Of a stretch of DNA of 64,000 nucleotides, positions 40,169 to 64,000 are shown piece by piece. Each line of letters starts with the position of its first letter. The stretch's first letter is position 1. Below the pieces are notes generated by a model. The model was given only the letters and a program-made list of their open reading frames with translations, ran no database searches and was not told where the DNA came from. The DNA comes from Glutamicibacter creatinolyticus. Its GTDB lineage: Bacteria > Actinomycetota > Actinomycetes > Actinomycetales > Micrococcaceae. A program made the position numbers and the translations under genes. The stretch is from contig NZ_CP034412.1 in the NCBI RefSeq assembly GCF_006094275.1, positions 2,914,001 through 2,978,000 of the forward strand. The letters are read 5' to 3'.

Positions 40169-41902
40169 CTAGGCCACCTCCTCCGCACTGTGCTGGGACG
40201 AAACGATTTCCTGGTAGGTTTCCGAGCTTTCCAGCAGCTCCTCATGGGTGCCGCGAGCCACGATTTCCCCGTGGTCCAGCACCAGGATCTGGTCGGCCCG
40301 GGTGATCGTGGAGACGCGCTGGGCCACGATGATCACCGCGGCGTCCTTCGTCGGCTCGGCCAGGGCGGCGCGCAGCTTCGCGTCGGTGGCCACGTCCAGT
40401 GCCGAGAACGAGTCATCGAACAGGTAGGTGCGCGGCTTGGCGGCCAGGGCCCGGGCGATGCACAGGCGCTGGCGCTGCCCGCCGGAGACGTTGGTGCCGC
40501 CCTGGGAGATCTTTGAGTCCAGCTGCCCCTCGCGTTCGGCGACGAAGTCCGCCGCCTGGGCAATGTCCAGCGCCTGCCACAGCTCAGCATCGCTGGCCCT
40601 CTGCGCCCCGAAGCGCAGGTTGCTGGCGATGGTGCCGGAGAACAGGTAGGGGCGCTGCGGGACGGCGGAGATGTTGCGCGAGATCGCATCCCGGCCCAGT
40701 TCATCCACCGGCACCCCGCCGATCAGAATCTGCCCGCGGGTCACGTCGTAGAGCCGCGGGATCAGGTTCAGCAAGGTGGTCTTGCCCGAACCGGTGGACC
40801 CGATGATCGCGGTGACCTTGCCCGGCTGGGCGGTAAAGGAAATGTTGTTCAGCACCGGGGCCTCGGCACCCGGGTAGCCGAAGCTGACGTTGCGGAACTC
40901 CACGGTGCCCGGGGTGGGCAGGTGCACCTCACGGTCCTCGGCCTCGGTCATGCTCGGCTTGGTGTCCAGCACCTCGCCGATGCGGTCGGCGGAGACCATG
41001 GCGCGCGGGACCATCATGGCCATGAAGGTGCCCATCATGACCGCCATCAGGATCTGCAGCAGGTACTGCAGGAATGCGGTCAACGCCCCGACCTCCACCT
41101 GCCCGGCATCCACCCGGTGCCCGCCGAACCACAGCACGGCGGCGGTGGACAGGTGCAGGATCATCGAGATCGCCGGGAACATGAGCACGAACAGGTTGCC
41201 GACCTTGACACCCAGGTCGGTCAGCTTCTGGTTCGCGTCCGCGTAGCGCTCGGTCTCGTGCTGTTCGCGCACGAACGCGCGCACCACGCGGATGCCGGTG
41301 ATCTGCTCGCGCAGCACCCCGTTGATCCCGTCAATGCGCACCTGCATCTGGCGGAAGAGCGGCATCAGCTTGATGACCAGGATGCCCACCACAATCAGCA
41401 CCACCGGCACCGACACCCAGACCAGCCAGGACAGGCCCGGATCCTCGCGGATGGCCATGATGACCCCGCCAATGGACATGATCGGGGCGGTGATCATGAA
41501 GTTCAGCAGCATCAGGGTGAGCATCTGCACCTGCTGCACATCGTTGGTGCCGCGGGTGATCAAGGTGGCGGCCCCGAACTTGTTCACGTCCTGCGCGGAG
41601 AACGTGGAGACCTGCTCGAACACGGCCTGGCGGATATCCCGGCCCAGGCTCATGGCGGTCTTGGCGCCAAAGTAGACGGCGCCGATCGCGGTGATCACCT
41701 GCACGAAGGCAACGACCAGCATGATCCCGCCGGTGCGCCAGATGTAGTCAATATCGGTGTTGACGACACCCACGTCAATGATCTTGGCGTTCAGGCTGGG
41801 CAGGAACAGCGTGGCCATGGTGGTGGCCAGTTGCAGGATGAAGACCGCAACGATCCACCCGGCATAGGGTTTGGAGTGTTTTAGGATGAGCTTCAGAAGC
41901 AT
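40169..41902 (-). CDS. ABC exporter subunit with degenerate ATPase site
   Basis: 577 aa with six membrane helices, Walker A GSTGSGKTTLLNL, a canonical signature VSGGQRQRLCIARA, but Walker B is TYLFDDSFSALD, with Asp instead of the catalytic Glu, and the H-loop has VAQRVST instead of the usual AHR. These two changes define the degenerate site in heterodimeric exporters such as TM287/288 and LmrCD. The catalytic partner is the next gene. Confidence 0.93.
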   Translation of the reverse strand: MLLKLILKHSKPYAGWIVAVFILQLATTMATLFLPSLNAKIIDVGVVNTDIDYIWRTGGIMLVVAFVQVITAIGAVYFGAKTAMSLGRDIRQAVFEQVSTFSAQDVNKFGAATLITRGTNDVQQVQMLTLMLLNFMITAPIMSIGGVIMAIREDPGLSWLVWVSVPVVLIVVGILVIKLMPLFRQMQVRIDGINGVLREQITGIRVVRAFVREQHETERYADANQKLTDLGVKVGNLFVLMFPAISMILHLSTAAVLWFGGHRVDAGQVEVGALTAFLQYLLQILMAVMMGTFMAMMVPRAMVSADRIGEVLDTKPSMTEAEDREVHLPTPGTVEFRNVSFGYPGAEAPVLNNISFTAQPGKVTAIIGSTGSGKTTLLNLIPRLYDVTRGQILIGGVPVDELGRDAISRNISAVPQRPYLFSGTIASNLRFGAQRASDAELWQALDIAQAADFVAEREGQLDSKISQGGTNVSGGQRQRLCIARALAAKPRTYLFDDSFSALDVATDAKLRAALAEPTKDAAVIIVAQRVSTITRADQILVLDHGEIVARGTHEELLESSETYQEIVSSQHSAEEVA

Positions 41903-42133
41903 GTGGTTTGTCCTCGCTAGCGTCAGCCCCGAAACCGCTGGGCGCGAACCGGTTTTTCGGCGCAGGGATTTGAGGGCGAAAGCCAGTCTAGTAGTCCCCG
42001 TTGGGCTTTGGAGTCATCCTTTTGATTGAATTGTGCCAATCACTTATGGCGTTCGACACGTTCCCCACCGCGCAGGACTACCCGCCAGGGCTGAAGTTGG
42101 CAGGAATCCGCGAATCGACGCGCAACAACGGGC

Positions 42134-42505
42134 TCAGGGCAGCGCGTCCGCGACCGCCTTGGCGGCGCGATGGCCGGTGACGGCGGCGGCCAACAGCCAG
42201 CCGATCACCAGCAGGTAGCCCGCCCCGGCCACCGCGAAGCCAACAGGGGGCCGAAAGAGCGCCGCGCACAGCACGGAAGCCGCCAGCAACAGCCATCCAC
42301 TGCGGGCTGCGCGGGCCATCTGCGGAACCGCGGCGGCGTGGCCCGTCAGCCAGGCCTCGTCCGAGGCCAGCGTGGCGCTGGTGCGAAGGCCCACCACGGC
42401 GTTGCGCCGCAGGCTGCCGCTGCGCATGGATCCAACCAGCAGCTGGCCGGTCAACGTGATGATTCCCAGTCCCGCCAGGAACGGGATCACCTCAACCCAG
42501 CCCAT
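42134..42505 (-). CDS. SdpI family membrane protein
   Basis: 123 aa from ATG 42505, preceded by AAGGGAAG. Three hydrophobic segments. The conserved SdpI motif RRNAVVGLRTSATLASDEAWLTGHAAA is complete. SdpI gives immunity to the SdpC toxin in Bacillus, but in actinobacteria most members are of unknown role; no sdpC-like gene is adjacent. Confidence 0.85.
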   Translation of the reverse strand: MGWVEVIPFLAGLGIITLTGQLLVGSMRSGSLRRNAVVGLRTSATLASDEAWLTGHAAAVPQMARAARSGWLLLAASVLCAALFRPPVGFAVAGAGYLLVIGWLLAAAVTGHRAAKAVADALP

Positions 42506-42809
42506 ACCCCTGCTTCCCTTGCCGCCTCTGCCACGGTTTGCCGCGGCTGCCTCCACGGTACCGCAGATCCCCGGCGCACCCGCGCCCGGTCTTCCCTGTA
42601 CGCACAAGCCGCAGGGGGTTCACTAGGGGTTTTGGCAAACGCCGCGTGACCGCCCGGCAACCAGCATGGACAAGAGGTGAACTCCGGCAGAACTTGTCCG
42701 AACAGGCCCGGTTTTTCATTGTCTGACGCCCGCCGGCGGGCCACCATGGTCATGGCCCGGCCAGTTCCGGGCGGATCATCCTTTTGAACTCTGACCATTG
42801 AGAACACCC
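42506..42809. other. Intergenic region between the SdpI gene and the phosphodiesterase
   Basis: About 300 bases containing no convincing gene. A GCCCGCCGGCGGGCC-type palindrome is present near 42730. Confidence 0.35.
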
Positions 42810-42961
42810 GTGAAATCATCCTCGCGCATCCGCGCATCCGTGGCCGCTTCCGCGCTGGCGCTGGCCGTAATTGCTCGGTCGCCGCCGAACCGGCCTCGGC
42901 CCCGCAACCCCAGCTGGCCGCCAAGAAGTCCACCGCGGCCCATGAGGGGCTGCCCTCGGGC
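42810..42961 (+). other. Out-of-frame signal peptide and N-terminus of the phosphodiesterase
   Basis: GTG 42810 opens KSSSRIRASVAASALALAVIA, a textbook signal peptide, in a frame that then ends as arginine/proline-rich nonsense. From 42878 a different frame, continuous with the phosphodiesterase, encodes VAAEPASAPQPQLAAKK, a normal mature N-terminus. One base is missing near 42871-42877 to join them. Confidence 0.75.
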
Positions 42962-44350
42962 GTGCACAAGAAGAAGACCCTGGTGATTGGGCTGGATGGC
43001 GCCTCGATGGCGCAGATCAACAAGCGCAACACCCCGAACCTGGCCAAGCTGTGGGCCGAGGGCATGCTCGCCAACTCCAACCTCTACGCCAACCCCATGG
43101 CGCCCACCGTCTCCGGGGCCGGCTGGTCCACCATTGCCACCGGCGCATGGCCGGACAAGCACCAGGTGCCGGACAACTCCTTCTCCAACCCCAACTATGA
43201 TCAATACCCCGATTACCTCACCCGCCTGGAGGCGGCCCGGGCCAAAAGCTCCACCCTGGTGGTGGGCACCTGGGGACCGATCCCGCAGCAGGTCTTCGCC
43301 CAGGGCGCGGACCTGTTGCTCGCCGGAGGCAATGACGCCGGCACCACCTCCACGGTGGTCGACTACCTGAAGAACGGGAACCCGGACAGCACCTTTGTGC
43401 ACCTGGATGAGATCGACGGGGCCGGGCACAGCAACGGCAGCGACTCGATCTCCTACACCCGTGCCCACGCGAAGGCGGATCAGCAGATCGGGGACATGCT
43501 GCAGGCCATCGATGAGCGCAGCACCCGGCACAAGGAGGACTGGCTGGTCATTGTCACCTCGGACCACGGCCACACCCCCGGTGGCGGGCACGGCGGCAGC
43601 AGCATCCGCGAACGGGCCACCTTCGTGATTGCCAACGGCAAGAAGTACGCCCCGGGCAGCACGCGGCATGATGTGAAGCTCACCGACATCGCCCCCACCG
43701 TCCTAAGGCACCAGGGCGTACGCATCGAGGACGACTGGGCCCTGGACGGGCAGGTCATCCAATCCATCAAGCCCGATGACTTTGACTCCCTGCGTCCGCA
43801 CCTGAAGAAGGCGAAGGACGAGTCGAAGCTCGGTGCGAAGACCAAGGGCTGGACCCACACCGCACCCAGCGGCTGGAGCATTGAGAACAAGGACATGCCC
43901 AAGGGCGGAGTGCGTGAATGGCGCGGCTGGTCCTTCACCACCGACGAGTTCTGGACCAATGCCGAGCTGAACCAGGGCCGGGAGACCAGCGTGCACAACC
44001 GCAACGTCTTCGCGGTGGCGGACTCCGATGAGTGGGATGACAAGTCCCACGCCGAGGGGCAGTTCGATTCGACCCTGGTCAGCCCCAGCTACAAGGTCAA
44101 GGGAGGCAAGCAGGCCACTTTGAGCTTTGCCTCGAACTACAAGGTGGACGGCCCGCAGAGCGCAGAAGTGTTCATCAGCTTCGACAATGGTGAGCCGGTA
44201 CTGGTCAAGTCCTATGAAAAGGACTTCAACGGGGTGGAGAAGCTCTCCATCGACGTGCCCAAGAAAGCCAAGCGCGCCCAGGTTTCCTTCCGGTATACCG
44301 GAACGAACTCCGCGTTCTGGACCGTGGACCAGGTGTCGTTGAAGAAGTAA
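42962..44350 (+). CDS. Alkaline phosphatase superfamily phosphodiesterase, secreted in its ancestral form
   Basis: The intact frame from GTG 42962 encodes 462 aa; ancestrally it began at 42810 with a signal peptide, now out of frame. Metal and catalytic motifs of type I phosphodiesterase/nucleotide pyrophosphatases: GLDGAS, the nucleophile region SGAGWSTIATG, DEIDGAGHSNG, SDHGHTPGGGHGG. A C-terminal beta-rich domain (SPSYKVKGGKQATLSFASNYK to TVDQVSLKK) resembles a carbohydrate- or surface-binding module. If translated only from 42962 the enzyme would stay in the cytosol. Its last 75 bases are duplicated at 52667. Confidence 0.82.
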   Translation: MHKKKTLVIGLDGASMAQINKRNTPNLAKLWAEGMLANSNLYANPMAPTVSGAGWSTIATGAWPDKHQVPDNSFSNPNYDQYPDYLTRLEAARAKSSTLVVGTWGPIPQQVFAQGADLLLAGGNDAGTTSTVVDYLKNGNPDSTFVHLDEIDGAGHSNGSDSISYTRAHAKADQQIGDMLQAIDERSTRHKEDWLVIVTSDHGHTPGGGHGGSSIRERATFVIANGKKYAPGSTRHDVKLTDIAPTVLRHQGVRIEDDWALDGQVIQSIKPDDFDSLRPHLKKAKDESKLGAKTKGWTHTAPSGWSIENKDMPKGGVREWRGWSFTTDEFWTNAELNQGRETSVHNRNVFAVADSDEWDDKSHAEGQFDSTLVSPSYKVKGGKQATLSFASNYKVDGPQSAEVFISFDNGEPVLVKSYEKDFNGVEKLSIDVPKKAKRAQVSFRYTGTNSAFWTVDQVSLKK

Positions 44351-45827
44351 GCGGCCCGGCACCAAAGCCCCACGGCCGGTGGCTTAACCACCAAGGGTGG
44401 CGCACGAGAACCGTGCGCCACCCTCACCTGTCCCCGGCCTGACGGCGAGGGGGTATGGACTAGCGTCCGGAGATCTTCACCAGCTTGTGGTTGACGAACT
44501 CATCCATGCCGTACTTGCCCAACTCGCGGCCGATGCCCGAGCGCTTTACGCCACCGAAGGGCAGCTCGGCGGCGGTGCCGGAGGGCTCGTTGATGGCCAC
44601 CATGCCGGTTTCCAGCTGGCGGGCAATGCGGTCGGCCCGCTCGGCGTCCTGGGTGTGGATGGAGGCACCCAGCCCGTAGTCGGTGTTGTTGGCCAGCTTC
44701 ACGGCCTCCTCCTCACCGTCCACCTTGTACAGCACGGCGACCGGGCCGAACAATTCCTCGCTGAAGGCGCGCATGTCCTCGGTGACCCCGGCCAGCACGG
44801 TCGGCTCAAAGTAGGCGCCGTCCCCGTCCACCGGCTTGCCGCCGGCCAGCACGGTTGCGCCCTTGTCCACGGCGTCCTTCACCTGGGCGGCCAACCCGTC
44901 GCGGGCCGCGGCCGAGGACAGTGGGCCGACGAAGTTCTCCGCCTCGGTCGGATCGCCCATCTTGATGCCGGACACCTGGTCCACCAGCGCCTTGGAGAAC
45001 TCGTCGTACACCGAGGAGTCCACGATGAAGCGCTTGGCGGCATTGCAGGCCTGGCCGGTGTTGCCGAAGCGGGCGCGCATGCCCAGCTTGGCGCTGCGGG
45101 CCACGTCCGCATCCTCCATGACCAGGAACGGATCCGAACCGCCCAGTTCCAGCACGACCTTCTTCAGGTTGCGCCCGGCGATCTCGGCCACCGCGGCACC
45201 GGCGCGCTCCGAACCGGTCAGCGAAACCCCCTGGATCCGGCGGTCGGCGATGATGTCGGCCACCTGGTCATTGGTGGCGAAGATGTTCACGTAGGCGCCT
45301 TCCGGGGCCCCGGCGTCCTTGAAGATCTGCTCCATGGCCAGCGCCGATTCCGGGCACTGCGGGGCGTGCTTAAGCAGGATGGTGTTGCCGTTCATCAGGT
45401 TCGGCGCCGCGAAGCGGGCCACCTGGTAGTAGGGGAAGTTCCACGGCATGATGCCCAACAGCACACCGACCGCTTCCTTGCGCACCAGCGCCTTGCCGCC
45501 GCTGGCGACCTCAAGCTCCTCGTCCTGCAGGAACTTCGGACCGTTCTTGGCGTAGTAGCGGTAGATGGAGGCGACAATGCTGATTTCGCCCTGGGCCTGG
45601 CGCACCGGCTTGCCCATCTCGCGGGTGATGATCGCGGCCAGTTCCTCCGCGCGTTCCTCGTAGATGTCGGCCACCCGCTCCAGCAGCGCGACGCGCTCGG
45701 AGATCTCGGAGGTGGACCAGGTGGTGAAGCCCTGGTGGGCCGCGCCAATGGCCTCCTGGATCTCGGCGTCGCTGGCGGTGGGGTAGGTTGCCTCTACGAC
45801 TCCGGTAGCGGGGTTGGTCACTGCATA
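44276..45827. repeat. Long direct repeat, copy 1 (3' end of phosphodiesterase plus gabD)
   Basis: About 1552 bases nearly identical to 52667-54216 in the same orientation. It contains the last 75 bases of the phosphodiesterase gene, the intergenic hairpin and all of gabD but its first few codons. Differences are a handful of substitutions, most in the intergenic part, and a net 2-base indel. Confidence 0.95.
44394..44424. terminator. Terminator between phosphodiesterase and gabD (copy 1)
   Basis: 13-bp perfect stem (44394-44406 with 44412-44424) between convergent genes; an identical copy lies at 52785-52815. Confidence 0.8.
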
Positions 45828-45836
45828 CATGCTCAT
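44460..45836 (-). CDS. gabD: NAD(P)-dependent succinate-semialdehyde dehydrogenase, copy 1
   Basis: Oxidises succinate semialdehyde or a related aldehyde. 458 aa from ATG 45836, preceded by GAGGAGGA. Family motifs: [57 protein letters not shown] (NAD site and catalytic Glu), and the nucleophile Cys in [11 protein letters not shown]. At the protein level it differs from copy 2 (52849-54225) at only two positions seen by eye (residues 3 and about 39). Its leader differs completely from copy 2 upstream of codon 3, and it lies 44 bases after the decarboxylase gene, making it the third gene of that operon. Confidence 0.93.
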
Positions 45837-45879
45837 GGGATTCCTCCTCGAAAATGGCGTCTTGCCGGTAATGTGGGGT

Positions 45880-47598
45880 CTATGGAAACAGGATGCCCTG
45901 ATCCACAATGACGTGTAGAAGGGCCGGGCGATGTTCTTTGAGCACCACATCCAGAGCACGCTGCACTGCTTCGGCGGCCTGAGCATCGCTGGTCACAGTT
46001 TCGCCGTGCCCCCCATAAGCGCGAGCCAACGCCGCAAAGTCCGGGTTTTGCAACTGGGTTCCCGAAACGCGGCCCGGGAAGTGGCCCTCTTGGTGCGCGC
46101 GAATAGTTCCGAACTGTCCGTTGTCCATTACTACGGTCAGCAACGCAGCACCGTGTTGGGTAGCACTGGCCAGTTCCTGCCCGTTCATTAAGAACTCGCC
46201 GTCACCGCAAATCGCCAGCACCAAGCGCTCCGGAGCCTCCAGGGAGGCAGCTACCGCAGCTGGAATAGAGTAACCCATGGATCCATTGCGGGTACCTAAC
46301 TGGGACGGGAAAATATTGGTTGGCACGTACCTCATGGGCCACGCACAGTGGTTGCCTGCCCCCATGGTAGTCACTACATCTTCGGGAAGACGCTGAACCA
46401 GCTCAGCAATCACCGCGCTCATGTGAGCGGTACCCTCGCGGGTTGGCGACAGCTCCTCGCGCTGTGGCAGCTTCGTGTATGCTTCTCGCGCTTCGCGCCC
46501 GGCAGCCCGCCAAGGCTCCCATTGAGTTTCCCGCTCCAGGCGCAATTCTTCTAGCGCTTCGGCAAAGACACCGGGAGTGGCCAAAATGTGACGGGTTATC
46601 GCCCCAGAGCGCCCACGCAATGAGGTGTCAATGTTTACAAGATAGTTGACTGCCCGCCGGTTCTGACGCAGGGTGAATCCATCGGTGGGTACATCGGAGG
46701 GTACCGCCCCAATTGCGACCAACACATCAGCTTCTTCGAACATCTGGGCCGCCTTATCGGTGCGCCCGTACCCCAGCTCGCCCATGTTCACTGGGGAATT
46801 GAACGGCACCCGATCCGCAGCGTGCCAATCATGTACCACCGGAATGTTGTTTGCCTCCGCAAAAGCCGTCACCCCTGCGGCAGCCTTCGCGCTCCAGCGC
46901 TGGCCACCGACAAACAGCAACGGTTTCTGAGCGTTGGATAGGGCGCTTGCCAGCTCCTTGAGTTCCCCGGTTGAGACAGCGCCCTCGGCCACGGTAAGCG
47001 GCTGGTGCAATTCACCGGCGAACTCATGGGCGACCACGTCCTCGGGAAGACCCACGATCACCGGGCCCGGACGACCTGACGCTGCCGCGAAAAAGGCCTC
47101 GGCCACGATCTCGGAAGCCCGCTCGGCTTCATCAATAACGAAAACGCGCTTGGCCTGACTGCCGAACCAGGCATAGGGGTCAAATTCCTGGAACGACTCG
47201 CGCATCCGGTCGGCTACCGGAATCAAACCCACGAACAGCACCATGGGAGTCCCATCCTGCCAAGCGGAGTGAACGGCCACGTACGCGTTGGCCGCACCGG
47301 GTCCGCGGGTCACCATGGCGACCCCGGGCTGTCCGGTGAACTTGCCGTGAGCCTCGGCCATGTAAGCGGCGCCTCCTTCGTGGCGCACTACTATGTTGTC
47401 GATATTCGCGTCGTGCAGACCGTCCAGCACAGCCAGGTAAGACTCTCCTGGAACCGTGAAGACGCGTTTGACACCGTGACGCGCAAGGGATTCGACGATT
47501 GCCGCTCCGGCGTGTGTTGGGCGGACCACGTGCGAACTGCGCCGCGAGGTGTCTGCCGACGAGGCGAGTTGGGTCGGAATGATGCTAGAGGTTTCCAT
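45880..47598 (-). CDS. Thiamine diphosphate-dependent enzyme (acetolactate synthase/2-oxoacid decarboxylase-like)
   Basis: 572 aa from ATG 47598. N-terminal Pyr domain with VPGESYLAVLDGL and the cofactor-activating glutamate in VVRHEGGAAYMAEA; central domain; C-terminal ThDP-binding motif ICGDGEFLMNGQELASATQHG to VVMDNGQFGTIR (GDG-x25-N). This layout fits acetolactate synthase relatives acting as decarboxylases or lyases. No small regulatory ilvN-like subunit or branched-chain gene is nearby. The start overlaps the amidohydrolase stop by 14 bases; gabD copy 1 follows. Inference: it decarboxylates a 2-oxo acid to an aldehyde that GabD oxidises. Confidence 0.85.
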   Translation of the reverse strand: METSSIIPTQLASSADTSRRSSHVVRPTHAGAAIVESLARHGVKRVFTVPGESYLAVLDGLHDANIDNIVVRHEGGAAYMAEAHGKFTGQPGVAMVTRGPGAANAYVAVHSAWQDGTPMVLFVGLIPVADRMRESFQEFDPYAWFGSQAKRVFVIDEAERASEIVAEAFFAAASGRPGPVIVGLPEDVVAHEFAGELHQPLTVAEGAVSTGELKELASALSNAQKPLLFVGGQRWSAKAAAGVTAFAEANNIPVVHDWHAADRVPFNSPVNMGELGYGRTDKAAQMFEEADVLVAIGAVPSDVPTDGFTLRQNRRAVNYLVNIDTSLRGRSGAITRHILATPGVFAEALEELRLERETQWEPWRAAGREAREAYTKLPQREELSPTREGTAHMSAVIAELVQRLPEDVVTTMGAGNHCAWPMRYVPTNIFPSQLGTRNGSMGYSIPAAVAASLEAPERLVLAICGDGEFLMNGQELASATQHGAALLTVVMDNGQFGTIRAHQEGHFPGRVSGTQLQNPDFAALARAYGGHGETVTSDAQAAEAVQRALDVVLKEHRPALLHVIVDQGILFP

Positions 47599-49225
47599 AT
47601 ACAAGTTCTCCTGCCACTACCGTGGCCTCGACTCGGGTATTAGCTATGTCTTCGGTGGGGATGTCGTAAATGTCCTGGGAAAGCACCACGAAGTCGGCCA
47701 GATGGCCGGGAACCAATTTGCCCTTGTAGCTCTCTTCGTGGACCGCGTGGGCGCTGCCCACGGTGTAAGCGTGCACCGCTTGAGCCACTGTGAGCTTCTC
47801 GCCATCGGTAAAGGGCGCGCCCGCCAACGTCGTGCGCTCTACCAGAGAGGCAATGTTCAAGAGTGGATCCGCACTGACCACGGGAGCATCGGTCGACCCG
47901 GGAATGACGAGGCCTGCGTCCAAGAAGGACTTCACCCGGTAGGCAAGCGGTTGTCGTTCGGCTCCCATAGCTACGGCAACCCCGTCACCTAGTTCGTGGA
48001 TGAAGCGGCCCTGTGGGACCGGAATGAGTCCTAACTGAACCATGCGCTGAATTTGCGCATCTGAGGCCACGGACGCATGCTCGATCCGGTGGCGCGCATT
48101 AGGACGGGGGGCGAGTTCCTGCGCCTGGGCGATGATGTCCATGACTACATCCAAGGCGGCGTCGCCTATAGCGTGTACCGCTAACTGCCAGCCCGCTAAA
48201 TGTGCTCCGATCAGCTTTTCTCGTAGTGTTTCCTGCGAAAACTGCAACAGGCCTCGGTTTCCCTCATCCGTGGCGTAGTCGCAGCACATGAAGGCGCTGC
48301 GGCCGATGAGCGAACCGTCGGAGAGGACTTTAGTCGGGCCGATGCGCAGCACTTCGTCGCCCATGCCGCTGCGCATGCCCAGGTCGAGACCGTAGCGCTG
48401 GTGACCCTTAAACGACTCCGTGTCCAGCGGGTGCAGGGTGGTCAGGTAGGGCATCAGTGTGGCGCGCACGCCAAGTTGACCGCGCTCGCGGGCCATTTGA
48501 TAGCCGGCTAGGTCCACTGAGCTCTGCCCGATGTGATCCGGCGCACCGATTCCCGGTTCGGTGATTGAGGTGACGCCCAACTTGAGCATCTCACGCGAAC
48601 CCGCCGCAACCAGATCAGCTACGTCCTGGATGGACTTAACCGGGATATGGTCCAGCACAATACTCCGCGCGGTTTCCTGCAATAGGCCCTCTGCGAGGCC
48701 ACGCGCGTCGCAGGGCACCGCTCCGCCGTCCGGCACTGGTACGTTACGGCGCTCTGGATAGCCGGAGAGCTCAAAGGCGCGCGTGTTCGCTACAGCCATG
48801 TGCCGCGACACGTGCCAGAGAAAGACCGGATGTCCGTGGCTAACAGAGTCCAGGGCCCGTGCGGTGGGGTGTTCATCGCCGAGGAAGTTCTGGTCATAGC
48901 CTGTGCCGATGACCCACGCACCGGGCTTAGCCGTGCTGGCCGCAGCATCTACTGCAGCGAGCAACTCCTCCATGGTCTTTACACTCTCCGGGCGCAAGTC
49001 CACTTGAGTCAGCGCGTCCCCAATGAAGGTGAGGTGAAGGTGGGCATCGTTAAAGCCGGGGACCACCGCTGCCCCACCGAGATCCACGACTTTTGCGAAG
49101 TGCCTGGGCTCGAGTTCATGGTCGAGACTAATGACTCGCCCGTGGTGAATTCCTAGCGCTTGAGCAAGCGGACGTTGGGGATCTTGGGTGTGGATGATCC
49201 CGTTGGTGTAAAGCACGTCGAACAT
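47585..49225 (-). CDS. YtcJ-like amidohydrolase (amidohydrolase family 3)
   Basis: 546 aa; ATG 49225 has AGGAGG five bases upstream. Metal-dependent hydrolase motifs: VVPGFNDAHLHLTFIG (HxH), HAIGDAALD, RIEHASV and GSTDAPV (the catalytic Asp). YtcJ/NfdA relatives deformylate or hydrolyse N-substituted amides. First gene of the island operon, with a Crp/GlxR-like site 25 bases upstream of the start. In this context it probably opens the pathway by removing an acyl or formyl group, giving the compound that the ThDP enzyme handles. The true substrate is unknown. Confidence 0.87.
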   Translation of the reverse strand: MFDVLYTNGIIHTQDPQRPLAQALGIHHGRVISLDHELEPRHFAKVVDLGGAAVVPGFNDAHLHLTFIGDALTQVDLRPESVKTMEELLAAVDAAASTAKPGAWVIGTGYDQNFLGDEHPTARALDSVSHGHPVFLWHVSRHMAVANTRAFELSGYPERRNVPVPDGGAVPCDARGLAEGLLQETARSIVLDHIPVKSIQDVADLVAAGSREMLKLGVTSITEPGIGAPDHIGQSSVDLAGYQMARERGQLGVRATLMPYLTTLHPLDTESFKGHQRYGLDLGMRSGMGDEVLRIGPTKVLSDGSLIGRSAFMCCDYATDEGNRGLLQFSQETLREKLIGAHLAGWQLAVHAIGDAALDVVMDIIAQAQELAPRPNARHRIEHASVASDAQIQRMVQLGLIPVPQGRFIHELGDGVAVAMGAERQPLAYRVKSFLDAGLVIPGSTDAPVVSADPLLNIASLVERTTLAGAPFTDGEKLTVAQAVHAYTVGSAHAVHEESYKGKLVPGHLADFVVLSQDIYDIPTEDIANTRVEATVVAGELVYGNL

Positions 49226-49249
49226 GCGGCCTCCTGAACTAGGAACTAA

Positions 49250-49263
49250 GTGATCTAGCTCAA
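49250..49263. promoter_or_regulatory. Crp/GlxR-like site before the amidohydrolase operon
   Basis: GTGATCTAGCTCAA, a GTGA-N6-TCA(C) palindrome with one change. Shares 13 bases with the reverse complement of the site at 29252-29265. Confidence 0.55.
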
Positions 49264-49334
49264 GTATCCGAAAAGCCTAGTATGCTGTCTAATACATATA
49301 AGTTCTTTATTCCATAACTCTATGGCATGAGAGG

Positions 49335-50267
49335 TTACTCTCCTCGCATGTCCAAAGCGGGTGCTGTACCTGCATCCAGTTGACCGCGCTCAACCCAAGG
49401 CCGCATCCGTCGCGCAATATCGCGGATTCGTTCTTCGGCATAGTGCCCCCGATGCCAGGCGAGGTGCAGGTTGAGAGTAGGCCGAACTGAGGGCTGCACC
49501 TCCCTGCTTTCAATGATGGCCACCCGACGGTTACCAAACGAGGGCAGCTCGGTACCGACCCCCACTCCTCTGCCGGAGGCCACTAATGCACTAATGGCCA
49601 ATCCGTCCTCGCATTCGATATATTGCGCCAAATGCACACCGTGTCGATTGAGCGCGTCATCGAGCACGTGGCGACTCACGCTATTGCGCGTGGGCAGAAT
49701 CAGGTGCTCCGAGCACAGCTCCCGAAGATCCACTTCTGCACGCCCGTCGGACACCCATGGGTGACTTGGCGGGCAAGAGGCCTTGAGAGCCACAACCCCC
49801 AGCGACTCTGAAGCTAAATCTCCACTGGGAACTTGCGGAGTAACCACGAAATCCAGATCGTGCAGTAGGGCCTGTTCCAAGTCGAAGTGGCTGACTTCGC
49901 GCACCACGATCATCGGGTCTCGCGGGGAAAGCGAGGCGATGAAAGGTGCCAAGAAACCGCGAATCGAAGCCGAAGTGGAGCCACAAGCGAACTTGGCAAC
50001 GTCCCCGGTACGCAGCACTGCTACCGCTTCTTGCAGATCCCTGGTTTGCAAGAGCAATTTTCGGGCCAAGGGGACGAAGGCGCGGCCACTGGAGGTGAGC
50101 ACCAGCCGGTTGCCCCGCGATTCAAAGAGCTTCAACTGCAGTTCCTGCTCAAGGGTTTTGAGTTGGCGACTGAGTGCCGGCTGGGCGATGTGCAGTTCTT
50201 CGGCGGCTGCGGTAACTGTCCCATAGTCGACGGTGCTCAGGAAATACTGCAAGCGGCGATAGTTCAC
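49335..50267 (-). CDS. LysR family transcriptional regulator of the island
   Basis: 310 aa from GTG 50267 (NYRRLQYFLSTVDYG), the usual LysR N-terminus; a longer frame to 50294 has no support. Helix-turn-helix in TVTAAAEELHIAQPALSRQLKTLEQELQ; effector domain with VVREVSHFDLEQALLHDLDF. It lies 109 bases upstream of the amidohydrolase in the same direction, and the MHS transporter is divergent on the other side. It is the obvious candidate regulator of the island genes. Confidence 0.9.
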   Translation of the reverse strand: MNYRRLQYFLSTVDYGTVTAAAEELHIAQPALSRQLKTLEQELQLKLFESRGNRLVLTSSGRAFVPLARKLLLQTRDLQEAVAVLRTGDVAKFACGSTSASIRGFLAPFIASLSPRDPMIVVREVSHFDLEQALLHDLDFVVTPQVPSGDLASESLGVVALKASCPPSHPWVSDGRAEVDLRELCSEHLILPTRNSVSRHVLDDALNRHGVHLAQYIECEDGLAISALVASGRGVGVGTELPSFGNRRVAIIESREVQPSVRPTLNLHLAWHRGHYAEERIRDIARRMRPWVERGQLDAGTAPALDMRGE

Positions 50268-50970
50268 GGCCCTACCATAGCAAGCCCCCGGCAATAGCTC
50301 GGATTACAGCGTCAAATTGATACCTTCCCAGGGTCTGGCCTGCGCTGCTTTGGAGCAGACGGTTCGGCCCTCTCCACCAAAAGCACGACGCGTCGCAGTT
50401 CCTCTAACGGGTCCTCCTGCAACGAGATGTTCAAGAGTTGCAACATTTCTACTCGGGGCAGCTGCACTCAGTTCTGTCCCCTTCTTTTTGCTGTCCTCGC
50501 TTGGGACCGTAACGGCCCTTGGGCGGGAAACATCCAAGGGGCATCACGCACTTCGTGGACGACGCGCCCGACCCGCCCAAAGCCCCGGTGAACGTATCAA
50601 CACACCTGGAACGTCACGAGCTTGATCGAGCTGACTTCTTCAGACTTTCCAAGGCAGATAAGCAGGACGCGTGCAACAGTGCCGGCATCGGTCTCCTCAC
50701 GCTCCGTTCCGCCTGTTCCTGCTACCGCTTCCCAACCTTCGGTTTCGCCCTGATCACTTCAAGGGCAAGGATACAACTAGCCCCACAGGCACAGCGGATT
50801 TCGCACGCACCGTCGCTCTGTGGAGAACTGCTGAGCATAACAAAAAAGCATGTATTCGCGGCCTAAGAGGTCTTGGACGCGATGTAGTTTGCGACGGGAT
50901 ACTGAAAGTGACGTACGACTATGGTGCGGATCACGGATCTCGGACCGCACGCCTCATAAGGAAGACGCAG
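50268..50970. other. Long intergenic region between LysR gene and MHS transporter
   Basis: About 700 bases. Reading frames of up to 115 codons exist on the plus strand, but none has a ribosome site or protein-like composition. It is probably a long divergent control region or decayed DNA from assembly of the island. No clear LysR T-N11-A box could be singled out. Confidence 0.45.
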
Positions 50971-52302
50971 ATGAAAACTCGCACCCTCACGCCGCAGCAG
51001 CGGCAAACCCGTGCCACAGCCGGCGCCTTCGTAGGCACCGCCATTGAATGGTATGACTTCTTCATTTTCGGAACGGCCGCGGCCCTAGTCTTTGGAAAAG
51101 TGTTCTACCCGGATATCGCAGCGGGAGCCGGCATCATGGCTTCTTTCGCCACTTTTTGGGTGGGTTTCCTGGCTCGCCCTCTAGGAGGCGTGCTCTTTGG
51201 GCATCTGGGAGACCGTTTCGGACGAAAGAACGTTCTAGTTGCCACACTGTTCCTGATGGGTGGTGCCACCACCCTGATTGGCCTGCTGCCAGGTTATGCC
51301 AGCATCGGCGTTGTAGCCCCAATTGCCCTGGTAATCCTGCGCGCAATGCAGGGACTTGCTGTGGGTGGCGAGTGGGCCGGAGCCACTTTGATGGCTACCG
51401 AATCTGCTTCTGAAAAAAAGCGCGGCATGGCAGGGGCCTGGGTTCAGCAAGGTTCACCCGCTGGCTCCATCATGGCTACGGTGATGTTTCTGCTGGTGGG
51501 CATGCTCGATGACGCGGCCTTCCTGTCCTGGGGGTGGCGTGTTCCGTTCCTCTTCTCCGCCCTGCTGGTCATCGTAGGGCTGATCATTCGTTCGAAAGTC
51601 GAAGAGTCTGCAGACTTCACGGCCTCGCGCGCCCAGCACGAGGTGGTCAAGGTACCAGTTATCGAGGTATTCAAGAAGGCTCCCGGATACGTGTGGCTGG
51701 GCGTGGCAGCTTCGGTGCTTGGTATCGCGATCGCATTTTTCAACAACACGTTCCTGCTGTCTTGGACGACAACAGCTGTCGATGCCGGGGGCATGGGCAT
51801 GGATCGACAGGTAATTCTGAATATCTTGCTGATCATGTCGGTTCTGCAGTTCCTCTGGCAGCCCATAGCAGCGAAAATCGCCGAACGCATCGGCGGGGTG
51901 CCCGTCATGCTCTGGGGGCTCGTGTTGAACCTGCTAATCATCGTTCCGCTCTTCCTGGCCATAATGAGCGCTAACGCGCTGATCATCGGTTTCGTACTGG
52001 GGGTCTCGATTCTAGGCGGCACGGCATACTACGCGATGCTCTCGTCTTTCCTGTCTCAAGCCTTCCCTGTCAACGTTCGCTTTACCGGCGTTGCCCTAGC
52101 GAACGGCCTATGTGCCTCCCTGATCGGCGGGTCTACCCCGCTACTCGCGCAGGCAATACTTGGCTCCTTCGGTCCATGGGGAGTTGCGGCTTTCTACGGG
52201 ATTATCGCCTTAGTAACAATGGCAGGAGTTTGGGGACTACATCGCAAAATGCGTGCACGTGATGTCTTTGCCGCCGATGCAGCCGCGGTCCTTCAGAAGT
52301 AG
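50971..52302 (+). CDS. MFS transporter, metabolite:H+ symporter (MHS/ShiA-like) family
   Basis: 443 aa from ATG 50971 (AAGGAAG upstream), 12 membrane segments. MHS marks: TAGAFVGTAIEWYDFFIFGTAAAL at the start, FGHLGDRFGRKN between helices 2 and 3, and AMQGLAVGGEWAGATLMATESASEKKRG. The family imports organic acids, shikimate, betaine and similar compounds. Divergent from the LysR gene, closed by a perfect hairpin; it is the uptake system of the island. Confidence 0.92.
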   Translation: MKTRTLTPQQRQTRATAGAFVGTAIEWYDFFIFGTAAALVFGKVFYPDIAAGAGIMASFATFWVGFLARPLGGVLFGHLGDRFGRKNVLVATLFLMGGATTLIGLLPGYASIGVVAPIALVILRAMQGLAVGGEWAGATLMATESASEKKRGMAGAWVQQGSPAGSIMATVMFLLVGMLDDAAFLSWGWRVPFLFSALLVIVGLIIRSKVEESADFTASRAQHEVVKVPVIEVFKKAPGYVWLGVAASVLGIAIAFFNNTFLLSWTTTAVDAGGMGMDRQVILNILLIMSVLQFLWQPIAAKIAERIGGVPVMLWGLVLNLLIIVPLFLAIMSANALIIGFVLGVSILGGTAYYAMLSSFLSQAFPVNVRFTGVALANGLCASLIGGSTPLLAQAILGSFGPWGVAAFYGIIALVTMAGVWGLHRKMRARDVFAADAAAVLQK

Positions 52303-52666
52303 CGTTTCTGGCCCTAAGTGAGTAAGTCCTGAATCTCAGAGGAACCAAAAGGTCTCCTGAACAGATTAAAGCATCTGCTCAGGAGACCTTTTCTTGGGTA
52401 GCGAAGAGTGTACAAAACTGTGACGTGAAAACAACCGGAACACCCCTCGTGTTCCTTGACGGCCACGTCATTCCGGCCCTGCTGGTTAGAACGAGTGGAA
52501 CTACCCTGGCTGCCCAGTCGCGCGCAGCAGCCATGTCTATACCTGGTCCAGTCCCGGCCGCATGCAAATTCCTGAGAAACGTGCTGGATCTGGCAACCCC
52601 GTACACATTTGAAGCCGATAATTTCGAGTATGTCGTCAATCTCGCCATGACCGGCCTAGCTCCACA
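52303..52666. other. Island right junction: terminator and unrecognised remnant
   Basis: After the transporter and its terminator come about 270 bases with protein-like translation in two frames (plus: GTPLVFLDGHVIPALL and PGPVPAACKFLRNVLDL) but no ribosome site. The sequence stops abruptly at 52667, where the long repeat begins. Likely a gene fragment carried in with the island. Confidence 0.5.
52347..52392 (+). terminator. Terminator of the MHS transporter
   Basis: 52347-52360 is the exact reverse complement of 52379-52392 (14 bp), ending in TTTT. Confidence 0.85.
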
Positions 52667-52741
52667 GCCCAGGTTTCCTTCCGGTACACCGGAACGAACT
52701 CCGCGTTCTGGACTGCGGACCAGGTGTCGTTGAAGAAGTAA
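52667..52741 (+). pseudogene. 3' fragment of the phosphodiesterase gene (duplicate)
   Basis: Matches the last 75 bases of the gene ending at 44350, including the stop codon, with three or so changes (RYTGTNSAFW to SLKK). Confidence 0.9.
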
Positions 52742-52784
52742 GCGGCCCGGCACCAAAGCCCCACTGCCAGTGGCTTAACCACCA

Positions 52785-52815
52785 AGGGTGGCGCACGAGA
52801 ACCGTGCGCCACCCT
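52785..52815. terminator. Terminator copy upstream of gabD copy 2 3' end
   Basis: Same 13-bp stem as at 44394-44424. Confidence 0.75.
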
Positions 52816-52848
52816 CACCTGCCCCCGGCCTGCTACCGAGGGTGTGGA

Positions 52849-54225
52849 CTAGCGTCCGGAAATCTTCACCAGCTTGTGGTTGACGAACTCATCCATGCCG
52901 TACTTGCCCAACTCGCGACCGATGCCCGAGCGCTTCACTCCACCGAAGGGCAGCTCGGCGGCGGTGCCGGAGGGCTCGTTGATGGCCACCATGCCGGTTT
53001 CCAGCTGGCGGGCAATGCGGTCGGCCCGCTCGGCGTCCTGGGTGTGGATGGAGGCACCCAGCCCGTAGTCGGTGTTGTTGGCCAGCTTCACGGCCTCCTC
53101 CTCACCGTCCACCTTGTACAGCACGGCGACCGGGCCGAACAATTCCTCGCTGAAGGCGCGCATGTCCTCGGTGACCCCGGCCAGCACGGTCGGCTCAAAG
53201 TAGGCGCCGTCCCCGTCCACCGGCTTGCCGCCGGCCAGCACGGTTGCGCCCTTGTCCACGGCGTCCTTCACCTGGGCGGCCAGCCCGTCGCGGGCCGCGG
53301 CCGAGGACAGTGGGCCGACGAAGTTCTCCGCCTCGGTCGGATCGCCCATCTTGATGCCGGACACCTGGTCCACCAGCGCCTTGGAGAACTCGTCGTACAC
53401 CGAGGAGTCCACGATGAAGCGCTTGGCGGCGTTGCAGGCCTGGCCGGTGTTGCCGAAGCGGGCGCGCATGCCCAGCTTGGCGCTGCGGGCCACGTCCGCA
53501 TCCTCCATGACCAGGAACGGATCCGAACCGCCCAGTTCCAGCACGACCTTCTTCAGGTTGCGCCCGGCGATCTCGGCCACCGCGGCACCGGCGCGCTCCG
53601 AACCGGTCAGCGAAACCCCCTGGATCCGGCGGTCGGCGATGATGTCGGCCACCTGGTCATTGGTGGCGAAGATGTTCACGTAGGCGCCTTCCGGGGCGCC
53701 GGCGTCCTTGAAGATCTGCTCCATGGCCAGCGCCGATTCCGGGCACTGCGGGGCGTGCTTGAGCAGGATGGTGTTGCCGTTCATCAGGTTCGGCGCCGCG
53801 AAGCGGGCCACCTGGTAGTAGGGGAAGTTCCACGGCATGATGCCCAACAGCACACCGACCGCTTCCTTGCGCACCAGCGCCTTGCCGCCGCTGGCGACCT
53901 CAAGCTCCTCGTCTTGCAGGAACTTCGGGCCGTTCTTGGCGTAGTAGCGGTAGATGGAGGCGACAATGCTGATTTCGCCCTGGGCCTGGCGCACCGGCTT
54001 GCCCATCTCGCGGGTGATGATCGCGGCCAGTTCCTCCGCGCGTTCCTCGTAGATGTCGGCTACCCGCTCCAGCAGCGCGACGCGCTCGGAGATCTTGGAG
54101 GTGGACCAGGTGGTGAAGCCCTGGTGGGCCGCGCCAATGGCCTCCTGGATCTCGGCGTCGCTGGCGGTGGGGTAGGTTGCCTCTACGACTCCGGTAGCGG
54201 GGTTGGTCACTGCATAGGTCGACAT
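52849..54225 (-). CDS. gabD: NAD(P)-dependent succinate-semialdehyde dehydrogenase, copy 2
   Basis: 458 aa, virtually identical to the first copy; same catalytic motifs ([20 protein letters not shown]). The start is ATG 54225 (MSTYAV) with AAGGAGCAGC shortly before it. This copy keeps a stand-alone leader of about 130 bases and ends facing the phosphodiesterase fragment. Its upstream neighbour is a pterin dehydratase read in the same direction. It most likely has the ancestral upstream region, while copy 1 was joined to the decarboxylase operon. Confidence 0.93.
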
Positions 54226-54357
54226 GCTGCTCCTTCAACGTTGGGGAATCCGCAAGGCCACCACGGGACGCGGATATATCCCCACCATTTCACGGATCGC
54301 GTCGGGAAAACAGCGGCAAAAGCCCAGAATGACGTGCCTTAGCGCAGGGCGAACGCC

Positions 54358-54672
54358 CTAGCCAAGGTCCGCCTGCGCGGCCAGCACCGCATGACTGATC
54401 TGCTGGGCCAGGGCCACATCCCGGGCGGTGATCTTCCCGCCCACGTCATGGGAGGTCAAGGCGATCAGCAGCTTGTCAAAACGCCAGTCCACGTCGGGAT
54501 GGTGCTCGGCCTGCTGCGCCAGTTCGGCGATTTCGGCAAACAGGTCAATCGCCTGCTGCGCGCTGGCACAGGCAACCCGGGTCCGCAGCGTGCCCGCTTC
54601 ATAGCTCCAGCCGGGCAGGCGCTGCAGGTTGCGCTCCAGCTCCTCGGTGTTCAGCACTTCGTCAGGGGACAT
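54358..54672 (-). CDS. Pterin-4-alpha-carbinolamine dehydratase
   Basis: Recycles 4a-hydroxytetrahydropterin for aromatic amino acid hydroxylases, or acts in molybdopterin-linked side reactions. 104 aa from ATG 54672, preceded by GAGGAG. The active-site segment is complete: EHHPDVDWRFDKLLIALTSHDVGG. No phenylalanine hydroxylase is in the window. A second dehydratase domain lies in the fusion protein at 58453. Confidence 0.92.
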   Translation of the reverse strand: MSPDEVLNTEELERNLQRLPGWSYEAGTLRTRVACASAQQAIDLFAEIAELAQQAEHHPDVDWRFDKLLIALTSHDVGGKITARDVALAQQISHAVLAAQADLG

Positions 54673-54894
54673 GGCTCTCCTCGGCTTCACAGTGAATCAG
54701 GCCAGGACGGTGTTCGGGCGGTCAGATGCTTCCAGTGTGCCACCGGATGTGCCCGGTGCGGGGAATAGACCCGCACCTGGAAGAACGCGGGCAGCCGGGA
54801 AAGCGGACGCAACATCGTTAACTTGCCCTAGAAAATGGAGAGACGTATCACTAGAATGAAAATAATTTCCCGCTAGATGAAAGTAGGTTTTCCC

Positions 54895-55371
54895 ATGGCT
54901 GCAGTCTCCACTCCCCTGCAGACCGGCGCGCAGGCTCCGGCGTTCACCCTGAAGAACAGCGAGGGTCAGGACGTCTCGCTCTCGGACTACGCCGGCAAGT
55001 CCGTCATTGTCTACTTCTACCCCAAGGCCGCGACCCCGGGCTGCACCACTGAGGCTTGCGACTTCCGGGACAACCTGAACTCGCTGCAGGGCGCCGGTTA
55101 CAGCGTGCTGGGCATCTCCCCGGACAGCCCGCAGGACATTGCCAAGTTCGCCGCCGATGAGTCCCTGACCTTCCCGCTGCTCTCCGACCCGGACAACGAG
55201 GTCGCCAAGGCCTACGGCTCGTACGGTGAAAAGACCGTCAACGGCAACACCTTCGATGGCACCCTGCGCTCCACCGTCGTGGTCGATGCCCAGGGGAACA
55301 TCAGCCACGCCGAATACGGCGTGGATGCCCAGGGCCACGTGGCCCGGCTGCGCGACACCCTCGGGGTGTAG
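54895..55371 (+). CDS. bcp: Thioredoxin-dependent peroxiredoxin (Bcp/PrxQ type)
   Basis: Reduces hydrogen peroxide and organic peroxides. 158 aa from ATG 54895; ATG 54877 is a possible longer start. Peroxidatic cysteine in PKAATPGCTTEACDFRDN, with the resolving cysteine five residues later (C-x4-C), the atypical 2-Cys PrxQ pattern. Closed by a strong hairpin before the convergent dsdA. Confidence 0.94.
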   Translation: MAAVSTPLQTGAQAPAFTLKNSEGQDVSLSDYAGKSVIVYFYPKAATPGCTTEACDFRDNLNSLQGAGYSVLGISPDSPQDIAKFAADESLTFPLLSDPDNEVAKAYGSYGEKTVNGNTFDGTLRSTVVVDAQGNISHAEYGVDAQGHVARLRDTLGV

Positions 55372-55411
55372 CACGGCCGCGCTTCCAGTAAATTGAAGCG
55401 CCTGAGCAACG

Positions 55412-55454
55412 ATGCCGCGGGTGGGCGAAGAATCCCTTCGCCCACCCGCGGCAT
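55412..55454. terminator. Bidirectional terminator between bcp and dsdA
   Basis: 18-bp perfect stem (55412-55429 with 55437-55454) and a 7-base loop between convergent genes. Confidence 0.88.
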
Positions 55455-55497
55455 TTGCGTTCCCTGCCCGGCAATCCCAGGGATGGTGCGCCCGAAC

Positions 55498-56847
55498 CTA
55501 GCCCAGCTGGACCTGCTCCAGCTCCCGGTGTCCCTCTAGGAGGTACCCGTCCATTTCCTTCTCCGGCACCATCGCCCCACCGGTGGACCACACCAGGTGT
55601 GTGGCGTTGGCCCACTGGGTTTCGCTCAGCCCGCTGGTTCCACGGAAATCGGGATCGCCCGCCACCCGCCAGGGCAGCAGCAGACCGGCCGTGGCCGAGG
55701 GTTCCACCCGAATGTCCTCGCAGTCAGCCAGCAGCGCGGTCAGGGCGAGCATCTTCTGGTCGGTGACCGTCGCATAGCCATCCACCACATCGGCGAGCGC
55801 CCGGCCCACCAGCTCGGAGGGACGCGCCACCGCCAGGCCGTCGGCCGCGGTCTTGCCGTCCAATCCCAGGTCGAACGCGCTGATCCGTTCATGCAGACCG
55901 GTCCGAACCCCCAGCGTCACCGCCGGGGAATGGGTGGGTTCGGCGAAGAAGCAACGCACCGCATCCCCAAATAGGTGCTTCAGCCCGAAGCTCACTCCCC
56001 CGGGGCTGCCGCCGACCCCGCACGGCAGGTACACCATCAGGGGATGTTCCTGGTCGACCCGCACCTCCAGCGCCCTGAGCTGACCGGCCAGCCGGTGCGC
56101 GGCCGTGGAATACCCGGCGAACAGGGCCATCGAGTTCTCATCATCCACAAAGTGCACGCTCGGATCGGCCTCCGCTTCGGCCCGCCCGGCGTCCACCGCC
56201 TCGGTGAAGTCCCCGGGATGTTCCACCACGCTCACGCCCCGGGAACGCAGCAGCTCCTTCTTCCAGGAGCGCGCGTCGGCGGACATGTGCACGGTGGTGC
56301 GCAGCCCCAGCGCGGCGGCCGCCACCCCGATGGAAAGACCCAGGTTTCCGGTGGAGCCGACCATGATTCCGTGATCCCCGAGCACCTGGCGCACGTCCGC
56401 GTCGGCGAACCGTGCGTAGTTGTCCGTGGGTTTGAGCACCCCGGCGTCCACCACGATCCGTTCGGCCACCTGCAGCACCTCGTGGATCCCGCCGCGGGCC
56501 TTGATCGAACCGGCCACCGGCAGCATGTCGTCCCGCTTCATCCACAACTTTCCCGGCAGCTGGCTTCCCTGCCGGTCATCCAGCTCGGCCTGCAGGTGGT
56601 GCAGTCCGTGCACCGGGGATTCGATGATGCCGTAGCTGATCGAGGTTTCCGGGAATTGGCGCACGAACCAGGGGGCAAAGCGCTCAAACCGCTGTCGGGC
56701 GTCCTCGATGAGATCGGCGTTCAGCCCGCTGGAGTCAAGGGCCTGCGCGGTCGGGGTGTGGCTCTGACGGAACCACAGTGTCTCCTTGCCCTGCGACATG
56801 GCTTCGACCACCGGGTCTTCCAGCAGCTTGTCGATGTTGAGTGTCAT
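55498..56847 (-). CDS. dsdA: D-serine ammonia-lyase (dehydratase)
   Basis: PLP enzyme converting D-serine to pyruvate and ammonia. 449 aa from ATG 56847, the length of DsdA. The PLP lysine lies in PVAGSIKARGGIHEVL; phosphate-binding glycines in GSTGNLGLSIG; the family block LPCGVGGSPGGVSFGLKHLFGD follows. The frame extends upstream to 56955 but into the terminator of the preceding gene. No D-serine transporter or dsdC-like regulator is next to it. Confidence 0.94.
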   Translation of the reverse strand: MTLNIDKLLEDPVVEAMSQGKETLWFRQSHTPTAQALDSSGLNADLIEDARQRFERFAPWFVRQFPETSISYGIIESPVHGLHHLQAELDDRQGSQLPGKLWMKRDDMLPVAGSIKARGGIHEVLQVAERIVVDAGVLKPTDNYARFADADVRQVLGDHGIMVGSTGNLGLSIGVAAAALGLRTTVHMSADARSWKKELLRSRGVSVVEHPGDFTEAVDAGRAEAEADPSVHFVDDENSMALFAGYSTAAHRLAGQLRALEVRVDQEHPLMVYLPCGVGGSPGGVSFGLKHLFGDAVRCFFAEPTHSPAVTLGVRTGLHERISAFDLGLDGKTAADGLAVARPSELVGRALADVVDGYATVTDQKMLALTALLADCEDIRVEPSATAGLLLPWRVAGDPDFRGTSGLSETQWANATHLVWSTGGAMVPEKEMDGYLLEGHRELEQVQLG

Positions 56848-56881
56848 CGGGTCCGTGGTCCTTTCCAGGGTTGGCACTAAG

Positions 56882-56919
56882 CGGTCCTGCTGCCAGTGTA
56901 ACCACGGGCAGCAGGACCG
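56882..56919 (-). terminator. Terminator of the AI-2E family permease gene
   Basis: 13-bp perfect stem (56882-56894 with 56907-56919) between the permease stop and the dsdA start. Confidence 0.75.
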
Positions 56920-56985
56920 TTCAGTGCCGTTTCCGGGCGTTCGGCGGACGCACATGTTGCTTTTTGGTCCCGCGAATAAATTAGG

Positions 56986-58302: not shown

Positions 58303-58452
58303 GGTCGCTCCTACCATCGGCCAATAGTGGGTCGGGCAGCAGTCGCGCCCGGTAGGTCCTGCACTGCCGGTTCAGTCGAGCACCGTTCCCGTCGACATCA
58401 CCATTTCATCTTCGTGCCACGCAGATGCAGCGACGCTGCACCACGCAACCGG

Positions 58453-63931: not shown

Positions 63932-64000
63932 TCTTAACTCCTTCGGAGCCGGAGGATGGGCGCAGATTTTGTACTGCGTCGCTGTCGTATTAGACACCGT

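Follow-up and report, generated by a model that had tools for sequence, protein, structure and literature searches.

A foreign catabolic operon lies between two direct repeats in the 64,000-nucleotide stretch of Glutamicibacter creatinolyticus DNA that was analyzed here (the window), which is part of a genome assembled as one contig of 3,309,128 bp. Each repeat carries most of gabD, a gene for an aldehyde dehydrogenase of the succinate-semialdehyde dehydrogenase (SSADH) type, and the last part of a phosphodiesterase (PDE) gene. Both gabD copies are of the type native to the genus, and one of them takes the position that the operon's usual gabD would have. The features that define the arrangement are as follows.

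42962-44350, plus strand: PDE / nucleotide pyrophosphatase-like gene, full length (Pfam PF01663); the final 75 nt recur at 52667
44276-45827: left direct repeat, from self-comparison (PDE tail, intergenic stretch, gabD1 to codon 3-4)
44460-45836, minus strand: gabD1, native-type gene for an SSADH-type aldehyde dehydrogenase, third gene of the foreign operon
45828-52666: foreign segment, 6,839 bp, GC 59.0%
52667-54216: right direct repeat, from self-comparison (75-nt PDE remnant, intergenic stretch, gabD2 to codon 3-4)
52849-54225, minus strand: gabD2, native-type SSADH gene with a native-like 5' end

The repeats have the same orientation and are separated by a repeat-to-repeat distance of 8,391 bp. 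When the window is compared with itself by using blastn, they match with 98.39% identity over 1552 columns, with 23 mismatches and 2 gap columns; a second aligner gives 19 substitutions and 6 gap columns. The match scores 2684 bits, versus at most 40.1 bits in 10 base shuffles of the window, and chance is therefore excluded. The next best match to the repeat in the genome is a 69% paralogue elsewhere. Each repeat starts 75 nt before the stop codon of the PDE open reading frame (ORF), continues through an intergenic region that contains a hairpin (at 44394-44424 on the left and 52785-52815 on the right), and ends at gabD codon 3-4. A first-pass annotation of this DNA had proposed two near-identical repeats with these limits, and the self-comparison agrees with it exactly. 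The left PDE gene is whole (82% amino acid identity to G. soli and to genome G008 over 462 amino acids), and the 75-nt remnant on the right is a piece of a second copy.

The segment between the repeats contains four genes and two noncoding regions.

45880-47604, minus strand: thiamine diphosphate (ThDP)-dependent enzyme (Pfam TPP enzyme; acetolactate-synthase-like PRK08199 subfamily, subfamily model above cut-off)
47585-49225, minus strand: amidohydrolase (Pfam Amidohydro_3), 85% amino acid identity to G. soli
49335-50294, minus strand: LysR-type regulator (Pfam)
50295-50970: spacer, 676 bp, GC 56.8%; about 110 bp in G. soli
50971-52302, plus strand: MHS-like (metabolite:H+ symporter) transporter (Pfam MFS), 89% amino acid identity to G. 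soli
52303-52666: island tail, in which a T-run follows a hairpin (52347-52392) and, after it, an open remnant reaches the PDE-tail joint (about 52663-52667)

This cargo is foreign by composition, and the repeats are not. The segment has a GC content of 59.0%, as compared with 66.8-66.9% for the repeats. GC at third codon positions (GC3) is 0.64-0.69 in the four cargo genes, versus 0.91 in gabD1 and gabD2 and 0.84-0.94 in six flanking genes. This composition supports the first-pass reading of the segment as an insert, and Pfam confirms the genes that were named then (TPP enzyme, Amidohydro_3, LysR, and MFS). The transporter scores 356 bits against the metabolite/H+ symporter model TIGR00883, which is below the cut-off of 443. 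The low-GC spacer between the LysR and MHS genes may be a decayed extra insert. The island tail has no Pfam or PHROG match and no nucleotide match among the compared loci except its own copy; in 197 genomes of the family, it has, besides its own genome, one weak match (E 0.0075, two stops). Relatives of the cargo enzymes in the PDB are acetolactate-synthase-like proteins or uncharacterized hydrolases. The neighbors of ThDP-gabD pairs in Halomonas and Arthrobacter are varied, and among 10 proteins they include an aminotransferase, a CobW-like protein, TRAP transporter parts, and an M20 peptidase. For these two reasons, no substrate is claimed for the pathway.

The cargo belongs to a known type of module, made up of a LysR gene, the successive amidohydrolase, ThDP enzyme, and SSADH (gabD) genes, and an MHS transporter gene. 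Eighty loci with the ThDP enzyme were retrieved from named genomes, and 39 of these were mapped. An SSADH-type gabD directly follows the ThDP gene on the same strand in 19 of the 39, so the usual module has a gabD of its own, as the first-pass annotation had supposed. All five genes occur in the order seen here at eight of the mapped loci, including that of G. soli, although at two of them (L070 and L073) the transporter match is fragmented. The 19 operon gabD proteins are 62-77% identical to that of gabD1, and the ThDP enzyme reaches at best 73% amino acid identity in named genomes. G. soli is nearest to the module overall (amino acid identities: amidohydrolase 85%, MHS 89%, ThDP 68%, LysR 55%, gabD' 77%). 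Its operon (L058 12074-19394; L077) has the same five genes in the same order. However, it has its own divergent gabD (gabD'), lies 10 kb from the native gabD, and has no flanking repeat beyond a gabD pair of 76%. Its genes also have a host-like GC3 of 0.85-0.93 (LysR 0.71). Among the fetched loci of at least 12 kb, which numbered 92 at final count, no other locus showed near-identical gabD repeats at the search settings used, and the best gabD pair is that of G. soli, at 78.5%.

The third gene of the operon in the window does not belong to the module's own gabD lineage. In a tree of 42 proteins, gabD1 and gabD2 fall within one clade with 15 native gabD genes of the genus (support 100/100), apart from all 19 operon gabD genes, including that of G. 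soli. A native-type gabD therefore occupies the place of the operon's own. A search of the genus finds some match in all 18 genomes and a gabD of this type (at least 76% nucleotide identity) in 16. There is a single copy in 14 of the 16, one native copy plus one operon copy in G. soli, and two native-type copies in the present genome.

The joint on the left falls at the start of gabD. gabD1 starts with ATGAGCATG and gabD2 with ATGTCGACC, and both continue with TATGCAGTGACC. Five of the six positions in codons 2 and 3 differ between the copies, and the following 120 nt are without a difference, which places a joint or the end of a tract at codon 3-4. This point lies in a start motif (YAVTNPATG) that gives about 20-25 nt of near identity and is common to nearly all such gabD genes; the left joint can therefore be homologous. 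The start region of gabD2 is 84-87% identical over 46-50 nt to the native genes of genomes G006, G007, and G011. The start of gabD1 adjoins the ThDP gene, with an upstream stretch unlike that of gabD2. On the right, the island runs directly into the final 75 nt of the PDE gene. Before the common AGGTTTCC, the sequence is CTCCACAGCCC in the island and AAGCGCGCCC in the host. The two sides have at most about 4 nt (GCCC) in common, which makes this joint illegitimate. Homology-facilitated illegitimate recombination predicts a deletion of host DNA at such a joint, but here host DNA is duplicated. gabD had been recognized as the joining site in the first-pass annotation, and this part of its reading stands; the illegitimate nature of the right joint went unremarked.

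The near identity of the repeats is also uneven along their length. The change point falls at 44550, with 11 substitutions in the 275 nt up to it (44276-44550, 4.0%) and eight in the 1,277 nt beyond it (44551-45827, 0.63%). In a permutation test in which the shuffles used the same grid, 17 of 5,000 permutations reached the observed value; an earlier test with a coarser grid for the shuffles gave 2 of 1,000. The more divergent part takes in the last ~91 nt of coding sequence, so relaxed constraint is not the whole explanation. Either the gabD bodies were homogenized by gene conversion or the segments differ in ancestry, to judge from this pattern. Codons 4-458 contain 11 synonymous differences and one replacement, with a proportion of synonymous differences (pS) of 0.033 and of nonsynonymous differences (pN) of 0.001, and both copies therefore look maintained. 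When polarized by relatives, the changes fall on both copies. The idea that gabD1 is a hybrid containing patches of operon type was rejected. Among the 12 differences in codons 4-458, the deviating base does not fall consistently on either copy, and no run of G. soli operon bases is present.

No hallmark of a mobile element was found in the ORFs and repeats scanned; the first-pass annotation had likewise seen no transposase, integrase, or terminal inverted repeat. None of 10 ORFs from 40169 to 56955 encodes a transposase or integrase according to Pfam, and two open remnants of island spacers and positions 50671-50970 have no Pfam match. Positions 40000-60000 contain no pair of inverted repeats of at least 40 nt. 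There are 35 shorter inverted pairs in 44000-54500, and none of the 25 listed has arms at both island ends. The window contains no tRNA genes. An integrase-type genomic island or integrative and conjugative element was rejected, given that the 10 ORFs include no integrase and the window no tRNA gene; att sites were not searched as such. A composite transposon was rejected because the repeats carry the PDE tail and gabD, and because none of the 25 inverted pairs listed, of 35 in all, lies at the ends of the island. Carriage of the module by a plasmid was likewise rejected. The amidohydrolase matches 89 plasmid records, all at less than 60% identity, with the best at 41%. Positions 50295-52670 match 49 plasmid records, those listed through generic MFS transporter sequence.

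Two genes form the right flank of the locus.

54358-54672, minus strand: pterin-4a-carbinolamine dehydratase gene
54877-55371, plus strand: putative peroxiredoxin (BCP)-like gene; genes in the vicinity of gabD in G. soli and G008 match it with 75% amino acid identity

The first-pass annotation had suggested that relatives be searched for a version of the locus with one gabD and no island. No relative was found that combines a single gabD with a neighboring PDE gene and lacks the island; none of the 15 native gabD loci of other genomes in the genus has a PDE or island gene within about 1.5 kb. A DNA search of the other genomes of the genus gave no PDE match apart from one of 79 nt in G017. A ThDP relative with 53-55% identity is present elsewhere in these genomes. 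Of 395 genomes of the family that were searched, 186 gave a match within the limit applied, and none of the matches listed from another genome extends more than 3 nt into the intergenic and PDE part of the repeat. In G. soli, the operon is 10 kb beyond the native gabD, and G008 is without the operon there. This position (L058 12074-19394 versus G008) is a separate presence/absence site for the module. Because the G. soli operon differs so much in GC3 from the cargo genes in the window, separate acquisitions of the module by the two species are most likely, as far as composition can tell.

The explanation that we favor, with moderate confidence, is that a horizontally acquired catabolic operon integrated at the native gabD of the host, by homology on the left and by end-joining on the right, and that the PDE tail and gabD were duplicated in the process. 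We infer the molecules and the order of events as follows. On the left, the copies become identical abruptly from codon 4 on, within the start motif, and the native gabD body would have replaced the operon's third gene. On the right, the foreign end would have been joined, without extended homology, to a point 75 nt inside the PDE gene. The duplication would have left the native locus whole, with PDE and gabD on the left, and gabD with its native-like start and its upstream gene on the right. Two routes could lead to this product. In route (i), a linear donor that carried a native-type PDE tail, gabD, and the operon would have been end-joined into a circle and then integrated by one crossover. 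In route (ii), one-sided homology at gabD would have been combined with illegitimate joining to a sister chromosome. Route (i) is slightly ahead because long, close repeats should not easily gain 4% divergence in place, and because the start of gabD1 resembles native-type starts of other Glutamicibacter species. By either route, gene conversion across the gabD bodies probably followed. Ku is encoded in the genome and could serve end-joining. A ComEC-type Competence domain is present too, but it also occurs in 10 of 14 control genomes, so it says little.

Known systems resemble this proposal in part. In the sections of an E. coli study on which we draw (PMC3240628), 56 of 60 clones examined for homology-facilitated illegitimate recombination gave duplications, not deletions. 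Its authors' reading there is that trimmed linear DNA recircularizes and integrates by a single crossover, which yields partial target duplications. The locus in the window is like these products in its partial target duplication, its one illegitimate joint, and the lack of a recombinase gene on the insert. It differs in that the event is natural and involves a catabolic operon, and the repeat is 1.55 kb, as compared with 0.11-0.95 kb in the 14 sequenced clones covered by those sections. Homology-facilitated illegitimate recombination in pneumococcus, Acinetobacter, and P. stutzeri, as outlined in the same sections (PMC3240628), resembles the proposed event in its homology at one end and its illegitimate joint at the other. 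However, its predicted product deletes host DNA, which is duplicated here. According to the portion of a pneumococcal study that we cite (PMC3784515), transformation produces merodiploids through exchange between sister chromatids, and host DNA is duplicated as in the window. The merodiploids described in that portion span about 100-900 kb and arise through existing repeats, whereas the duplication here is 1.55 kb, with no prior repeat known.

Several observations weigh against this explanation. The first three codons of gabD1 (ATGAGCATG) occur in seven of the 15 native gabD genes of the genus and in none of the 19 operon gabD genes. By using blastn, the start region of gabD1 matches native genes with up to 92% identity over 36-38 nt and with 78-80% over 54-60 nt (G001 and G012); its match to the G. 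soli operon (53 nt, 77%) is no better than these. The start of gabD1 may thus be that of the donor's own native-type gabD rather than operon-derived. Such an origin would argue against a simple crossover involving the gabD usual for the operon. PDE is beside gabD in this genome only; in both G. soli and G008, 17-18 kb lie between the two genes. No other gabD exceeds 84% identity, and neither an empty site nor a donor allele was seen among the genomes searched.

The first-pass annotation had a segment with its own gabD region recombine at the native gabD. That gabD is the site and that the repeats are the duplicated target agree with our results; the rest is not supported in the form given, since both copies are native in type (100/100, GC3 0.91) and the module's usual gabD is missing here. 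Taken in its plain form, such a Campbell-type event would be a single crossover between the native gabD and a circle with the module's usual divergent gabD. Direct repeats of a homologous target flank the insert, as in a single-crossover integrant, and the module does carry a gabD elsewhere. However, the usual gabD proteins are only 62-77% identical, so the copies would differ by ~20% or more, and the observed difference is 1.6%. The circle would also have to carry PDE-tail DNA, which is present in the right copy, and the model could be rescued only by extensive later gene conversion. We therefore consider it unlikely. A circular donor works only if a native-type PDE tail and gabD were already joined to the operon in the donor, and in that form a circular single crossover is possible, not proven. 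An origin by vertical descent is just as unlikely. Here, an ancestor like G. soli, which has native gabD and then operon gabD' 10 kb on in one orientation, would have fused native gabD to the operon by a crossover with gabD', and an illegitimate exchange between sister chromosomes would have restored the native locus. It seems improbable that chance would twice have put the same module this close to native gabD. Against such descent, G008 shares the G. soli neighborhood without the operon there, which suggests that G. soli gained it independently. The difference in GC3 makes a long shared history in such hosts unlikely. In addition, the 28 kb that follow the BCP-like gene on the right gave no match to a G. 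soli protein, the operon genes excepted.

It is also conceivable, but quite improbable, that the PDE tail and gabD were duplicated in tandem within the native locus and that the foreign segment later landed in the joint. A pS of 0.033 and 4% divergence at one end allow such an older duplication. Nevertheless, two independent events at the same base would be required, and no mobile element was found to explain the landing. Finally, long repeats can be misassembled. However, the assembly consists of a single contig, 19-23 sites as well as gaps distinguish the copies, and the flanks differ on all four sides, which makes an assembly artifact highly improbable.

The G. soli operon raises a further question about gabD. 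In the tree of ThDP enzymes, G. soli groups with Arthrobacter operons, first with L090 (90/90) and then with L079 and L080 (94/96), on long branches and below the starred level. In the gabD tree, G. soli gabD' is sister to the native Glutamicibacter genes (98-99/96-97). The trees of two genes of one operon thus disagree. This conflict hints at repeated swapping of gabD; alternatively, native gabD might derive from operon gabD. Because the swap is complete in the window and the two G. soli trees disagree, gabD might be a recurrent docking handle of the module, by which the operon spreads among actinobacteria via its last gene and exchanges its gabD for that of the host. This idea is doubtful.

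Other features of the window were also observed. A SAM-IV riboswitch is found at 60018-60134 (minus strand, 84.3 bits), and the overlying ORF (59279-60145) is without a Pfam match. The window contains an 86-bp inverted pair with 89.5% identity, at 9619-9704 (plus strand) and 63897-63982 (minus strand). The leader and first codons of a zinc alcohol dehydrogenase gene (62870-63997) recur at 9619-9704, followed by unrelated sequence, which looks like a truncated duplicate of the gene start. An arginine deiminase gene is located at 34923-36170 (minus strand), and an amino-acid permease gene (36555-37754) adjoins it.

The event at gabD is ordinary gene acquisition, and its principle is already known. 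As read here, the locus would be a natural example of how a gene cluster without a mobile element enters a chromosome, with one joint at a shared metabolic gene and the other made by end-joining. The host gene would have been kept whole by duplication, with its second copy placed in the operon of the newcomer. The repeats also provide a testable case of repeat-mediated loss or amplification, either of which is a fair prediction for this operon.

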